In this document: one piece after another, positions 17,007 through 64,000 of the stretch
How the letters are laid out: every line of letters starts with the position of its first letter
How positions within the stretch are numbered: the stretch's first letter is position 1
From: Desulfoglaeba alkanexedens ALDC
GTDB taxonomy: Bacteria > Desulfobacterota > Syntrophobacteria > Syntrophobacterales > DSM-9756
DNA: 64,000 nucleotides
Direction: 5' to 3'
Assembly (NCBI RefSeq): GCF_005377625.1
Contig: NZ_CP040098.1
Location: 2,411,501 to 2,475,500, forward strand
The notes under the pieces: model-generated
What the model saw: the letters and a program-made list of their open reading frames with translations, nothing else
What the model was told of the DNA's origin: nothing
Database searches by the model: none
Made by a program: the position numbers and the translations under genes

Positions 17007-18707
17007 ATGCGAAACAAAATCGGGCAGATGCTCATCAATGCCGGTCTCATCAGCAAGGAGGACCTGGATCTGGCCCTGGAAGAACAGCGCCAAAGCGGGG
17101 AGCGGATCGGGGCCATCCTGATCCGGAGGGAACTCCTTGACGAAGCCACCCTGGTGGAGTTCCTTTCCAAACAGTTCAGCGTGCCCGTGGTCAATCCATC
17201 CAAGCTGAACATATCGAAGGCCGTAACGGGACTCATTCCGGTAAACGTGGTGCAAAAATATCAGGTGGTTCCCTTCGGCCTTGTGGGCAACACACTCCAT
17301 GTGGCCATGTCGGATCCCGGAAACCTCTTCGTCATTGACGACATCCGATTCATCACCCAAAAGAATGTTCAGATCCACGCGGCCCCGGAAAGCGCCATCA
17401 AACGGGCCATCGAACGTTTGTATGCGTCCAACGCCAACGAGAGCCTGGAAGAGGTTATGGGGATGATCCGCGAGGAAGTGGACGTGGACCTCGTGGACAC
17501 CTCGGACGAAATCGAGCTGAGTCAGTTGGAAGACGCCGCCGGGGAAGCCCCGGTGGTGAAGCTGGTGAACCTGATCCTTCTTGACGCCATTCGCAAGCAG
17601 GCGAGCGACATTCATATCGAGCCTTACGAGAAAAAGATGCGGGTGAGGTTCCGCATCGACGGCATGCTCTATGAGGTGATGCGCCCGCCGCTCCAGATGA
17701 AAAACGCCATCATCTCGCGCCTCAAGATCATGAGCCGGCTCGACATCGCGGAACGCCGACTGCCTCAGGACGGACGCATCAAGTTGAAGACCAAGGGAAG
17801 CGAGATGGAGTTTCGCGTGTCAGTGCTTCCCACCCTGTTCGGCGAAAAAGTGGTCCTGCGACTCCTGGACAAATCCAACCTGCAGCTCGACATGACGAAA
17901 CTCGGGTTCGAGGAGGAACAGCTCAAGGCCTTCCGGGAAGCGATCTACAGCCCCTACGGCATGGTGCTGGTGACCGGTCCGACGGGAAGCGGCAAAACCA
18001 CCACGCTCTACAGTGCCCTTTCGGAACTGAACAAGATTCACCACAACATCTCCACGGCGGAAGACCCCGTGGAATACAGTCTGGTGGGGATCAATCAAGT
18101 CCAGGTGCACGATGCGATCGGACTCAATTTTGCCGCGGCTTTGAGATCGTTTCTCCGGCAGGACCCGGACATCATCATGGTGGGGGAAGTCCGGGATTTC
18201 GAAACGGCCGAAGTGGCGATCAAGGCCGCCCTGACCGGGCACCTGGTGTTGAGCACGCTCCACACCAACGATGCTCCAAGCACCGTGAACCGCCTGCTCA
18301 ACATGGGCGTCGAACCCTTTCTGGTGTCTTCGGCGGTGAACCTGGTGCTGGCCCAGCGGCTGGCTCGCAAGGTCTGCCCGGAATGTAAGGTGGTGGAAGA
18401 TGTGCCGCCGGAGGCACTCCTGGAACTGGGGGTCGGCGAAGACGAGGTGGGAACGTTCCCCTGCTATCGGGGAAGGGGATGCCCGGCATGCAGCGGTACC
18501 GGGTACCGGGGACGGATCGCCCTCTACGAAGTGATGCCCATGAAGGATGAAATCCGGGAACTGGTTCTGGTCGGGGCTTCGGCCTCCGAACTGAAACGGG
18601 AAGCGATCCGGCTGGGCATGACCACCCTCAGGCGAAGCGGCATCAATAAACTCAAGGAAGGCGCCATATCGGTGGAAGAGGTGCTCCGGAGCACCATAAA
18701 GGACTGA
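17007..18707 (+). CDS. pilB: Type IV pilus assembly ATPase PilB (GspE/PulE family) with MshEN domain
   Basis: About 566 aa. Residues about 5-57 form a MshEN module: two 24-residue motifs (starting KIGQMLINAG and RIGAILIRRE) with a 5-residue spacer RQSGE, a known c-di-GMP-binding architecture. The second motif has Glu where Gly is usual. The ATPase core has Walker A GPTGSGKTTT near residue 325, the Asp-box AEDPVEY, Walker B-region IIMVGEVRDFETAE and a His-box. A tetracysteine zinc site (about C457/C460 and C492/C495) is intact, as in extension ATPases and unlike PilT. It powers pilus extension at the inner membrane. Start 17007 (MRNKIGQ) is preferred; its Shine-Dalgarno is weak. pilC and pilS follow. 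Confidence 0.94.
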   Translation: MRNKIGQMLINAGLISKEDLDLALEEQRQSGERIGAILIRRELLDEATLVEFLSKQFSVPVVNPSKLNISKAVTGLIPVNVVQKYQVVPFGLVGNTLHVAMSDPGNLFVIDDIRFITQKNVQIHAAPESAIKRAIERLYASNANESLEEVMGMIREEVDVDLVDTSDEIELSQLEDAAGEAPVVKLVNLILLDAIRKQASDIHIEPYEKKMRVRFRIDGMLYEVMRPPLQMKNAIISRLKIMSRLDIAERRLPQDGRIKLKTKGSEMEFRVSVLPTLFGEKVVLRLLDKSNLQLDMTKLGFEEEQLKAFREAIYSPYGMVLVTGPTGSGKTTTLYSALSELNKIHHNISTAEDPVEYSLVGINQVQVHDAIGLNFAAALRSFLRQDPDIIMVGEVRDFETAEVAIKAALTGHLVLSTLHTNDAPSTVNRLLNMGVEPFLVSSAVNLVLAQRLARKVCPECKVVEDVPPEALLELGVGEDEVGTFPCYRGRGCPACSGTGYRGRIALYEVMPMKDEIRELVLVGASASELKREAIRLGMTTLRRSGINKLKEGAISVEEVLRSTIKD

Positions 18708-54727: not shown

Positions 54728-54963
54728 GTGGACAAGGTCCGAATTCTCCGGGAGCGGGCGCGCCTCCTGGAGGAACTGGAAAGGGCCTATCGCCGGCTCC
54801 GCATCCCCCTTCTTTATTGGAATTCCGCTCCACGGATTCCGGCCGAATCATTTCGGAACTGGAGCGGCTGAAAGATCTGCGACGTGAAGGGATGCTGGAT
54901 GAGGCGGAATTCGAACGCCTCAAGCGGCAGATTTTCGCGAGAAGGGAATCGTCCGCCGAATGA
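54728..54963 (+). pseudogene. Possible frameshifted small coiled-coil/SHOCT-like gene
   Basis: One frame from GTG 54728 gives a strongly charged coil (VDKVRILRERARLLEELERA). A second frame ending at 54963 gives a SHOCT-like end (LERLKDLRREGMLDEAEFER, LKRQIF). Joined by a frameshift near the C/T run at about 54804-54815 they would form one protein of roughly 78 aa overlapping the next ATG. It could be a sequencing error, a real frameshift or two chance frames. A FliT-like role is possible from position only. Confidence 0.35.
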
Positions 54964-56549
54964 AAATTCTTATCATTGAAGACGACATCTTCCTGGGAGA
55001 CATTCTCCAAAGCTACTTGCAGCAACTGGGGCACGAGGAGGTGAGGGTCTGTCCTCGTGGACTGGAGGCGGAGGCTCTCCTGGAAAAGAGGACTTTCGAT
55101 TGTGCTTTTATCGATCTGAAGCTCCCCGATATTGACGGTCTCAGTCTGCTGGAGAGAATAAAGGGGCGCGACCGGACGCTGCCCGTGATCATGATGAGCG
55201 GTTTTCCCACCATGGAGTCGACCATCCAGGCCATGCGGAAGGGGGCCTCCGATTTTCTGACCAAACCGTTCACCCTCCAGGATCTTGCGCTTTCTCTGGA
55301 ACGGGTGACCAAGGAACGAATTTTGCTCTTGGAAAACCTGGGCCTGAAACTGGAGTGTCAGGCTCAACGGCAACTGAAGGCGGTCAACGTGGAACTTCAG
55401 GAGAAGGTCCGGGAAAAGGAGCGGTTGTTTGAGATTTCCCGCCGGATCGATGAGGTGCGTTCCAGCGAAGACCTTTATGCGACGATCATCCAGCTGGCGC
55501 ATCGGGTGACGCAAGCGGACAGAGTGGGGTTTTTCGTGTATCTTCCCGAACACGACCGGATCGCCCTCATCTCGGAGAAAGGTTTCTGCGAAGCGGGCTT
55601 GACTCGGCCGGTCTTCAGCGTCGATGCTTCGAGGCTAAAAGAACGGGTCGGTTCCGGATCCAGGCCGGTGCTGGTCCGGCCCTGGGATTTCCTTCGGGGC
55701 TGGACCGGCTTGGATGATGAGCCCGGAGCGGGGGCGCCCGGTTCAGGCTCATTGTTTGCGCTTCCGGGCGGGGAGAGCGAGCGCGGGATGCTCCAGGCTT
55801 CCTACAGATGCTGGCCGCTGTGGATCCGCGGCGAGCTGTTCGGGTTACTGATGCTTTCGCAGAACAGCAAGAACGGGAGCCTGTCCGCTTCGCAGACGGG
55901 ACTCCTGGATTTCCTCATGCGCAAAGCGGCGCTCGCCGTGGAAAACATGGCGCTCTACGAGAGCTTGATCAGCAATTTCTACGGGATCTTGAAATCTCTT
56001 GTGAACGCTTTGGAAGCGAAGGATCCTTATACGGGCAAGCACTCGGAACGGGTCACCATCTTTGCGGTGCGCCTGGCCCGTGCCATGGGTTGCCGGCCGA
56101 ACGACATCGAAGTACTTCGGACCGTGGGCTACCTTCATGACATAGGCAAGATAGGCATTGCGGACAAGATTTTGAACAAACCGGGACGCCTGGATCCCGA
56201 AGAATACGAGATGGTTAAACGGCATCCGGTGATCGGGGAAGCGATTGTTAGGGAACTGGGTTTGAGCGCAGAAGAACGCGCGATCATTCGGCATCATCAC
56301 GAACGATGGGACGGCAAGGGGTATCCGGACGGGCTGAGCGGTACTGATATTCCGTTTCTGGCTAGGATCGTAACGGTGGCGGATGCCTTCGACGCCATGA
56401 CCTCCAAACGGGCCTACCGCGATTCGCTCCCCCTGGAACAGGCCAAGCAGGAAATCCGTGACAGCCGCGGCAGGCAGTTCGATCCTGACGTGGTGGATGC
56501 CTTTTTCGCGGTCATGGAAGAACGGAAGGGAAGCGACGGGGATGAATAA
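54960..56549 (+). CDS. Response regulator with GAF and HD-GYP (c-di-GMP phosphodiesterase) output
   Basis: 529 aa. Receiver domain residues 1-120 with acceptor Asp52 (AFIDLKLPDIDG), a coiled linker, a GAF-like domain (about 160-330) and an HD-GYP domain (about 345-525). HD-GYP signatures are complete: YLHDIGKIGI, HPVIGEAIV, RHHHERWDGKGYPDGLSG and VADAFDAMTSKRAYR. It should hydrolyse c-di-GMP when phosphorylated. A PilZ gene starts inside its 3' end (8 bp overlap), so effector and enzyme are coupled. Confidence 0.93.
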   Translation: MKILIIEDDIFLGDILQSYLQQLGHEEVRVCPRGLEAEALLEKRTFDCAFIDLKLPDIDGLSLLERIKGRDRTLPVIMMSGFPTMESTIQAMRKGASDFLTKPFTLQDLALSLERVTKERILLLENLGLKLECQAQRQLKAVNVELQEKVREKERLFEISRRIDEVRSSEDLYATIIQLAHRVTQADRVGFFVYLPEHDRIALISEKGFCEAGLTRPVFSVDASRLKERVGSGSRPVLVRPWDFLRGWTGLDDEPGAGAPGSGSLFALPGGESERGMLQASYRCWPLWIRGELFGLLMLSQNSKNGSLSASQTGLLDFLMRKAALAVENMALYESLISNFYGILKSLVNALEAKDPYTGKHSERVTIFAVRLARAMGCRPNDIEVLRTVGYLHDIGKIGIADKILNKPGRLDPEEYEMVKRHPVIGEAIVRELGLSAEERAIIRHHHERWDGKGYPDGLSGTDIPFLARIVTVADAFDAMTSKRAYRDSLPLEQAKQEIRDSRGRQFDPDVVDAFFAVMEERKGSDGDE

Positions 56550-57108
56550 CCGAGAGTTCCTGAGGGTGGAAGTTCCGGAGTTGAGGGTTCACTACAACCT
56601 GATTCCAGAGAACTGCTCCATTCCTCATTTGCTGGGCTTCGTGGAAAAGAGGGAACCGTCGTCCGGACTGGAACCGGAGGGCTGCGATCCCGTTCAGGAG
56701 ATGATACTCCGTATGGTGCGCCGTGTGGAATCCAAGCTGGACAGGATCCTGGGACACCTTGAGCGCGACGGGTACCGGCCGTCTTACGAATTCCAGGGAC
56801 AGGTGGTGAATATAAGCGGCGGCGGGCTGTCTTTCGCCACGGTGAACGACCACGCGGTGGGCGCCGTTCTGGAGCTGTGCATCTTTCCGCAGTTCGGTGA
56901 TCCCCGCCCCCTATTCGCCATAGGAAAAATCTGCTCGATTGAACCGTACTCTTCAGACGTGTATCCTGCGGCATCTCTGGTGGGAGTGAAGTTCGTGGAA
57001 ATTGAAGAGGAAGCGCGCGAAGCGATCATCCGGCTGGTGTTTCAGATGGAACGGAAACGAAAACAGCGGGATGTCGAAGAGGGGTGGAATCCGGGAGGGA
57101 AGACGTGA
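56542..57108 (+). CDS. PilZ domain protein
   Basis: About 188 aa. N-terminal NREFLRVEVPELRVHYNLI, a helical middle, and a C-terminal PilZ-like beta barrel with VVNISGGGLSF (the DxSxxG-type motif as NISGGG) and SLVGVKFVEIEE. The Arg pair needed for c-di-GMP binding is only partly clear (FLRVEV), so binding is probable but not certain. It overlaps the HD-GYP gene and its stop overlaps the GTG of the next kinase, indicating one transcript. Confidence 0.8.
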   Translation: MNNREFLRVEVPELRVHYNLIPENCSIPHLLGFVEKREPSSGLEPEGCDPVQEMILRMVRRVESKLDRILGHLERDGYRPSYEFQGQVVNISGGGLSFATVNDHAVGAVLELCIFPQFGDPRPLFAIGKICSIEPYSSDVYPAASLVGVKFVEIEEEAREAIIRLVFQMERKRKQRDVEEGWNPGGKT

Positions 57109-62643: not shown

Positions 62644-64000
62644 ATGACAAAGAATGGGGATGTGCATGGCATCGCACTGGAGATCCTCAACCGTTTGACG
62701 AACGGGGTGGTCATGGGCGCCGATGATCTCATGGGCATTGGAGACTGTCTGAACCTTTTGGACGAACTCGAAGGACGCCCGGATCTGCCGGAGGAATGGT
62801 CGGAGACGATTCAAGAGGTCAAAAAACGCTTCAACCGGATCATCCTCGAAGAATCCCCTGACGTGGACCATGATTGGCGAGCCATCCAGGAGATGCTCAG
62901 CGATCTGGCGGGTGAGGGGCAATCCCAAGACCGAGGTGCGGACTTGGGCGGGTCGACCGGCGAGAATGGGTCCGTATCCCTCGGTGGGGCACCCGCGGAG
63001 GCGGAAGCGACTTCCGCTGTGTCCGAAATCCTGGAAAGCCAGGCGCCCGAGGCCGGATCGGAAGAACTGGAAGTTCAGGATCCCGAACTTCTTCGCGACT
63101 TTGTTGAAGAGGCCAAAGAGCATCTGGCGTCAATCGAGATCAACATGATTTCCCTGGAGGCCGATCCGGACGACAAGGAAGCCGTCAACGAGGTGTTCAG
63201 ACCCTTTCACAGCATCAAGGGCGTGGCCGGCTTCCTGAACCTCAAGGGAATCCACGAGTTGACCCACGAAGTCGAAAACCTCCTGGACGAAGCCCGTTCG
63301 GGGCATATCAAGATAACGGACGCCCTCATCGACCTGGTCCTAAACGCCGTGGACATCCTCAAGGTGCTGCTCGGCGAACTGGAGGACGCGAGCTCGGGGC
63401 GGGAGGGAGCCGGCATTTCGATGCACCTGGTCCGCGGCTTTATGGAGAGAGTGCGTCGCTTCCGGCCGGACGCGGAAGGGAAAGCGTTGCGGGAGGTTCC
63501 TCAAATTGGAAAGATCTTGGTCGATCAAGGGGTGATCGAACCGGAGCGCCTCGAGGAGGCGGCCGAAAGGAGTCGTCGCAGCAACCGGAGGATCGGGGAA
63601 GAACTGGTTTCGGAAGGTCTGGTGGCACCGCAGGACTTGGGACGTGCCTTGAGGCAGCAGCGGCACCTGAAGGAAGGAGCGGCTTCGGTTCGGGTCGACA
63701 CCATGAAGCTCGACGGCCTGGTGGACATGGTGGGCGAACTGGTCATCGCGCAATCCATGGTGCTTCAGAATCCTGAGGTGCAGGGGATCAAGGATCAGAA
63801 ATTCCAGAAGGACGCCGTTCAGCTCCGCCGGATCACCGCAGAACTGCAGCGGATCAGCATGTCGCTTCGCATGGTGCCCATCAAGAGCACCTTTCAGAAA
63901 ATGATCCGCCTGGTACGGGACCTTTCCCACAAGTCTGGAAAAGAAGTGACTTTGGTCATGCGCGGCGAGGAGACGGAAATCGACCGCAACATGGTGGAGG
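62644..64000 (+). CDS. cheA: Chemotaxis histidine kinase CheA, 3' truncated, with internal MshEN-like domain
   Basis: 452 codons present; the window ends inside the gene. A helical N-terminal segment (about 1-85) and acidic linker precede the P1 Hpt domain, whose phosphoacceptor is His189 in FRPFHSIKGVAGFL. At about residues 287-340 are two 24-residue motifs, beginning QIGKILVDQG and RIGEELVSEG, joined by the 5-residue spacer RRSNR: the MshEN layout. The H-dimerisation domain starts near residue 348 (RVDTMKLDGLVDMVGELVIA) and the kinase domain begins at the window edge (SGKEVTLVMRGEETEIDRN). No P2 domain is recognisable between. CCAGGAG precedes the ATG. It should receive receptor signals via CheW and phosphorylate CheY. 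Confidence 0.93.
   Translation, partial: MTKNGDVHGIALEILNRLTNGVVMGADDLMGIGDCLNLLDELEGRPDLPEEWSETIQEVKKRFNRIILEESPDVDHDWRAIQEMLSDLAGEGQSQDRGADLGGSTGENGSVSLGGAPAEAEATSAVSEILESQAPEAGSEELEVQDPELLRDFVEEAKEHLASIEINMISLEADPDDKEAVNEVFRPFHSIKGVAGFLNLKGIHELTHEVENLLDEARSGHIKITDALIDLVLNAVDILKVLLGELEDASSGREGAGISMHLVRGFMERVRRFRPDAEGKALREVPQIGKILVDQGVIEPERLEEAAERSRRSNRRIGEELVSEGLVAPQDLGRALRQQRHLKEGAASVRVDTMKLDGLVDMVGELVIAQSMVLQNPEVQGIKDQKFQKDAVQLRRITAELQRISMSLRMVPIKSTFQKMIRLVRDLSHKSGKEVTLVMRGEETEIDRNMVE

Follow-up and report, generated by a model that had tools for sequence, protein, structure and literature searches.

A conserved MshEN_N module with one degenerate c-di-GMP half-site between the Hpt and dimerisation domains of CheA in the Syntrophobacterales

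Among the nearest known counterparts of the module reported here is MshEN_N from V. cholerae MshE (Wang et al., 2016; PDB 5HTL), in which two 24-residue motifs separated by a 5-residue spacer fold into a four-helix bundle. In that study (PMC5013675), the 53-residue MshEN_N binds c-di-GMP on its own, with one guanine (Gua1) held by R9, L25, L29, L39, the G11/D12 amides and Q32, and the other (Gua2) by R38, L54, L58, L10, the G40/D41 amides and Q61, and loss of any one of the conserved hydrophobic residues weakens binding more than 10-fold. In GSPII-B of T. thermophilus PilF, exchange of the motif I glutamine (Q190E) weakens the KD from ~6 nM to ~500 nM, changing both glutamines abolishes binding, and Lys at the first motif position is harmless (PMC11731258). 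The companion domain GSPII-A pairs one good with one degenerate motif (PMC11731258, PMC12002112); this natural degeneration has cost it binding, which was regained only with both glutamines plus an arginine (PMC12002112). A further case is ND0 of X. citri PilB, an MshEN_N-like domain without the c-di-GMP motifs, which is part of an N-terminal fragment that binds a PilZ protein (PMC8389850; 7lkm). CheA itself was already counted among the partners of MshEN in 2016 (Wang et al., PMC5013675); the available sections of that text name the fusion without a functional test, and without the one-sided loss described below, and our literature search found no published functional test of an MshEN–CheA fusion. 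Where c-di-GMP is known to reach chemotaxis, it does so by way of adaptors or receptors, for example MapZ, which acts on CheR1, or chemoreceptors that carry PilZ.

A fusion of the same kind as those of Wang et al. is encoded in the window, by which we mean the whole 64,000-nucleotide stretch of Desulfoglaeba alkanexedens DNA that was analysed. The features concerned are:

17016–17174, + strand: MshEN_N of PilB, both half-sites complete (NF053729, 65.8 bits), our internal comparison
54960–56549, + strand: REC-GAF-HD-GYP, a response regulator of the c-di-GMP phosphodiesterase type, upstream of the che genes
56458–57108, + strand: PilZ-domain protein (PF07238, E=9e-10), with REFLR and NISGGG c-di-GMP motifs recognised by eye
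62644–64000, + strand: 5′ part of cheA, running off the window (Pfam Hpt, H-kinase_dim, HATPase_c, CheW)
62656–62934, + strand: N-terminal four-helix region of CheA, aa 5–97 (AlphaFold2; no Pfam family)
63085–63354, + strand: Hpt domain (P1), aa 148–237 (PF01627, E=1.1e-14), with His189 in FHSIKG
63502–63573, + strand: MshEN motif I, aa 287–310, a degenerate half-site (R9 to Q, L29 to A, Q32 to S, MshE numbering)
63574–63588, + strand: spacer RRSNR, 5 residues, aa 311–315
63589–63660, + strand: MshEN motif II, aa 316–339, every contact kept (R38, I39, G40, E41, L54, L58, Q61)
63682–63864, + strand: P3 dimerisation domain, aa 347–407 (PF02895)

The complete CheA, for which the gene was taken from the genome (L002:9145-11376), is a 744-aa protein of the flagellar type, with Pfam matches to Hpt (148–237), H-kinase_dim (347–407), HATPase_c (456–593) and CheW (599–728). 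It carries the set of parts by which a CheA is recognised, namely an Hpt domain with its phospho-His and the dimerisation, HATPase_c and CheW domains; His189 is invariant in our CheA alignment (A3), and the P3–P4–P5 fold agrees with that of T. maritima CheA. The N-terminal region, conserved and confidently predicted without a Pfam match, comprises helices 5–20, 29–43, 50–67 and 74–97 (AlphaFold2 pLDDT ~80–92 for aa 11–90). The surrounding genes run CheR, CheD, CheY, CheX, CheY, CheA and an Hpt–CheZ fusion, and flagellar-type ORFs, recognised by eye, follow farther downstream. The CheZ with its N-terminally fused Hpt (L002:11339-12571) lies directly past the window end, after cheA, and together with the CheX phosphatase it places two phosphatase types beside two CheY proteins. 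Rfam returned no match.

The 159 bases at 63502–63660 translate to QIGKILVDQGVIEPERLEEAAERS-RRSNR-RIGEELVSEGLVAPQDLGRALRQQ, that is, 24+5+24 residues at aa 287–339 of CheA, the very layout of two 24-residue motifs and a 5-residue spacer that an earlier sequence-only reading of this DNA had noticed and likened to MshEN. NCBIfam NF053729, a curated model of the MshE-related c-di-GMP motif (MshEN_N) with 53 positions and a cut-off of 38 bits, aligns with this segment over positions 1–53/53 at 51.7 bits (E=5e-14, far above chance), and is matched by 27/27 aligned CheA orthologues. Run blind against the whole genome, this model exceeded its cut-off only in PilB and this CheA, and the CheA match fell exactly on window 63502–63660. 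A profile built from the orthologous segments matched, in the PDB, PilF at E=7.9e-22 and V. cholerae MshE at E=7.8e-10. The segment is a genuine MshEN_N module between Hpt and P3, where the sequence-only reading had placed it, and PilB has the same arrangement, also as that reading had stated. Pfam PF05157 (“MshEN”), the search it had put forward as a check, gives no match in CheA even at E=1. In PilB, PF05157 spans residues 91–175 and the two motifs lie before it, at 38–90; the Pfam model covers only MshEN_C, the subdomain that follows both motifs, and therefore its miss in CheA does not count against the assignment. What the miss does report, taking PF05157 as the criterion, is that CheA lacks the MshEN_C subdomain.

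Two other identities were tried and rejected. DUF4388 reached E ~5e-4 at best, below cut-off and over one hairpin only, and the C-terminus of fumarase C gave weak Pfam matches in 18/27 members (best E 5e-4), far weaker than those to MshE and PilF. A 730-aa open frame of FapA-type appearance (L139, G000:C1:2163069-2163242, − strand) carries N-terminal MshEN-like tandem hairpins that score 26.6 bits, below the cut-off.

The predicted structure of the module agrees with the sequence assignment. AlphaFold2 folds it into a four-helix bundle (pLDDT 89.9). In Foldseek, this bundle comes closest to MshE bound to c-di-GMP (TM 0.78, rmsd ~0.9 Å over 56 columns; with a chain of this length E is only 0.02), the comparison that the sequence-only reading had suggested, and next closest to the c-di-GMP-bound GSPII-B of PilF; 7lkm is also among the fold matches. 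VIA-align gives Z 10.5 to both MshE and PilF GSPII-B and ~7 to unrelated fumarases. Since fumarases score up to Z 7.1 among the fold matches, the hairpin also occurs outside MshEN; and because chance alone can give helical bundles Z values of this kind, it is the sequence evidence that carries the argument for identity.

What, then, is the state of the predicted c-di-GMP site? We tabulated 32 CheA orthologues, the window protein and 31 others of the same order (NCBI Syntrophobacterales). Position Q32, at the end of motif I, is S in 16, A in 11, G in 3 and T in 2, and Gln in 0/32; position L29 is A in 21, V in 8 and I in 1, the leucine surviving in 2 and being replaced in 30/32. On the Gua2 side, K/R38, G40, E41, V/L54 and Q61 are each present in 32/32 and L58 in 30/32, and position 10 is always V, L or I. 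The 5-residue spacer is kept in 31/31, and the stretch A57-L58-R59-E60-Q61 is more uniform in this order than in other MshEN-CheA proteins. In the window protein, the motif II contacts R38, I39, G40, L54, L58 and Q61 agree with the consensus R, L, G, L, L, Q, and the motif I contacts Q, I, G, L, A and S depart from it. The aberrant end of motif I (AERS) was correctly picked out in the sequence-only reading; Gln at R9, where 24/32 orthologues have Lys, and Ala at L29 are further deviations. That the degeneration is limited to the window species was considered and ruled out, the motif I loss being shared by the whole order. The CheA module thus resembles that of MshE in its motif lengths, spacer, four-helix bundle and motif II contacts, and differs from it in being fused to CheA instead of a pilus/T2SS ATPase and in a motif I without R9, L29 and Q32. 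Relative to PilF GSPII-A the asymmetry is reversed, with motif II degenerate there and motif I here. ND0 of X. citri PilB likewise has the MshEN fold without the full c-di-GMP motifs, but it has lost them altogether, whereas the CheA module keeps motif II.

These observations bear directly on whether the kinase could be a canonical sensor, binding c-di-GMP from both sides at physiological concentration and tuned by it directly, as the sequence-only reading had proposed. The REC-GAF-HD-GYP and PilZ genes that it had reported upstream are present. The genome has four GGDEF matches, and this organism probably makes c-di-GMP, since two of them keep intact GGEEF/GGDEF motifs (diguanylate cyclases). 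Of the genomes compared, two from the same family keep HD-GYP and PilZ next to the che genes and one from another family keeps HD-GYP alone; neither was found there in three others. Because the linkage is kept in some genomes and not in others, the neighbourhood argument is suggestive only. Synthesis and other receptors encoded in the genome, the conserved linkage in the two own-family relatives, a score beyond the cut-off of a curated c-di-GMP motif and the compatibility with binding of the Lys that most orthologues have at the first position (PMC11731258) would all suit a canonical sensor. Against it stand the missing Q32 throughout the order, the near-universal replacement of L29, the Gln at R9 in the window protein, the more than 10-fold cost of hydrophobic mutations in MshE (PMC5013675) and the need of PilF GSPII-A for both glutamines before binding became measurable (PMC12002112), and we regard such a sensor as unlikely. 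Of the earlier proposal, the MshEN domain in CheA stands, and the direct tuning is weakened by a half-site in which the Gln is absent from 32/32 orthologues and the Leu from most; c-di-GMP may control chemotaxis directly here. Canonical tight binding is unlikely, although a strong scaffold could keep binding in the micromolar range, and a changed response to nucleotide, or a role in docking a protein, appears more likely than a canonical clamp.

The distribution of the module suggests how the asymmetry might have arisen. CheA relatives were sought in 84,980 named genomes, and most of those found have the same module directly ahead of P3. Within the order they come from Desulfacinum, Desulfosoma, Desulforhabdus and Syntrophobacteraceae MAGs, and by hand count an orthologue occurs in ~34/38 same-family or same-order genomes; farther afield they come from Desulfarculus, Desulfamplus, Desulforapulum, Desulfobotulus, Desulfotignum, Planctomycetes/Phycisphaerae, KSB1 and Acidobacteria MAGs. 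The survey of CheA proteins that the sequence-only reading had suggested finds the insert in the order, in other Desulfobacterota, in Planctomycetes and more. Outside the order-wide orthologue set, MshEN-CheA proteins have Q32 in 46/48, L29 in 40/48 and Q61 in 48/48. In a tree of P3–P5 only (FastTree, midpoint rooting, with some deep forks weak), the order's orthologues form one clade with a support of 100, all non-Q32 and nested among Q32-bearing CheA, and on the simplest reading the Gua1 half-site would have been lost once, in the order's ancestor. A second CheA clade (L033–L044), from the order and another class, has both motifs complete to the Gln (one with Arg) and a 1-residue spacer instead of 5. 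In one orthologue (L051, from G027), the module has given way to a low-complexity linker rich in Ala, Pro and Thr; at least one species can thus dispense with it.

That linker, together with the contacts gone from motif I, would fit a decaying, functionless remnant serving as a mere spacer between P1 and P3. Neutral decay would not, however, conserve fold-forming positions, spacer and motif II contacts across three families of the order as is seen here, which makes a remnant very unlikely.

In other CheA proteins, P2 is the usual occupant between P1 and P3. In the full-length model (mean pLDDT 76.6), the module forms a separate bead on two linkers (aa 278–283 and 345–353, pLDDT <50) that are probably flexible as judged from the prediction, and it sits where P2 sits in other CheA proteins; a helix 4 running straight into P3 was ruled out by the low pLDDT of aa 345–353. 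No Pfam match to P2 was found in the window CheA or seven relatives (8 MshEN-CheA proteins), P2 being a divergent family that sequence searches can miss. The module may therefore be imagined as a docking site for a protein, CheY or CheB in P2's stead or a PilZ-like or other partner, with nucleotide binding lost. The absent P2 match, the P2-like suspension on flexible linkers, the precedent of the ND0-containing fragment of X. citri PilB and its PilZ protein (PMC8389850), the uniformly small residues of motif I (S/A/G/T) and the extra uniformity of the 57–61 stretch, as for a contact face, are all compatible with docking. Yet P2 could have escaped sequence detection, and the motif II residues kept are exactly the c-di-GMP contacts of MshE, which docking would not require; we consider loss of nucleotide binding in favour of docking possible, if on the improbable side.

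We lean slightly toward a broader reading, in which the half-site-lost module is a regulatory input with weak or one-sided nucleotide binding or a docked partner. The four-helix MshEN_N module, suspended in P2's place between P1 and P3 by linkers that are probably flexible, would descend from an ancestral CheA module with both c-di-GMP half-sites, a state still found in most relatives outside the order. In the order's ancestor, the Gua1 half-site (R9, L25, L29, Q32) would have been lost or remodelled to small residues, and the other half-site (L10, R38, G40, E41, L54, L58, Q61) would have stayed under strict conservation. Rather than a canonical high-affinity, two-sided clamp, the module would then be an inherited input to the kinase, presumably for c-di-GMP originally, that may act by binding nucleotide weakly (in the micromolar range) or from one side, or via a partner docked on the retained face, altering the access of P1 to P4 or the activity of P3/P4. 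Several points temper this regulatory-input reading: the invariance of motif II could stem from packing or folding and not from a ligand, the nanomolar scaffold of PilF GSPII-B still binds at ~0.5 µM without its motif I Gln contact, which leaves some room for canonical c-di-GMP binding, and the L051 orthologue does without the module.

CheA is a homodimer and c-di-GMP is two-fold symmetric. Since half-site II is kept while half-site I is lost, each of two CheA protomers might grip one guanine, with c-di-GMP bridging the CheA dimer or array, an idea to which we give little probability indeed.

The fusion of MshEN with CheA has been known since 2016 and its motif has a curated family; the order-wide, one-sided loss is new as far as we have searched. 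NF053729 matches in L004–L032 show that proteins with half of the c-di-GMP site missing still exceed the curated cut-off, and the label “cyclic di-GMP-binding” overstates the sequence support where the site is incomplete. A c-di-GMP module within the kinase itself would constitute a direct link to chemotaxis, and nature has set up an experiment in which intact-looking MshEN-CheA proteins (Desulfarculus, Desulfamplus) can be compared with those of the half-lost order for the role of each half in the kinase.
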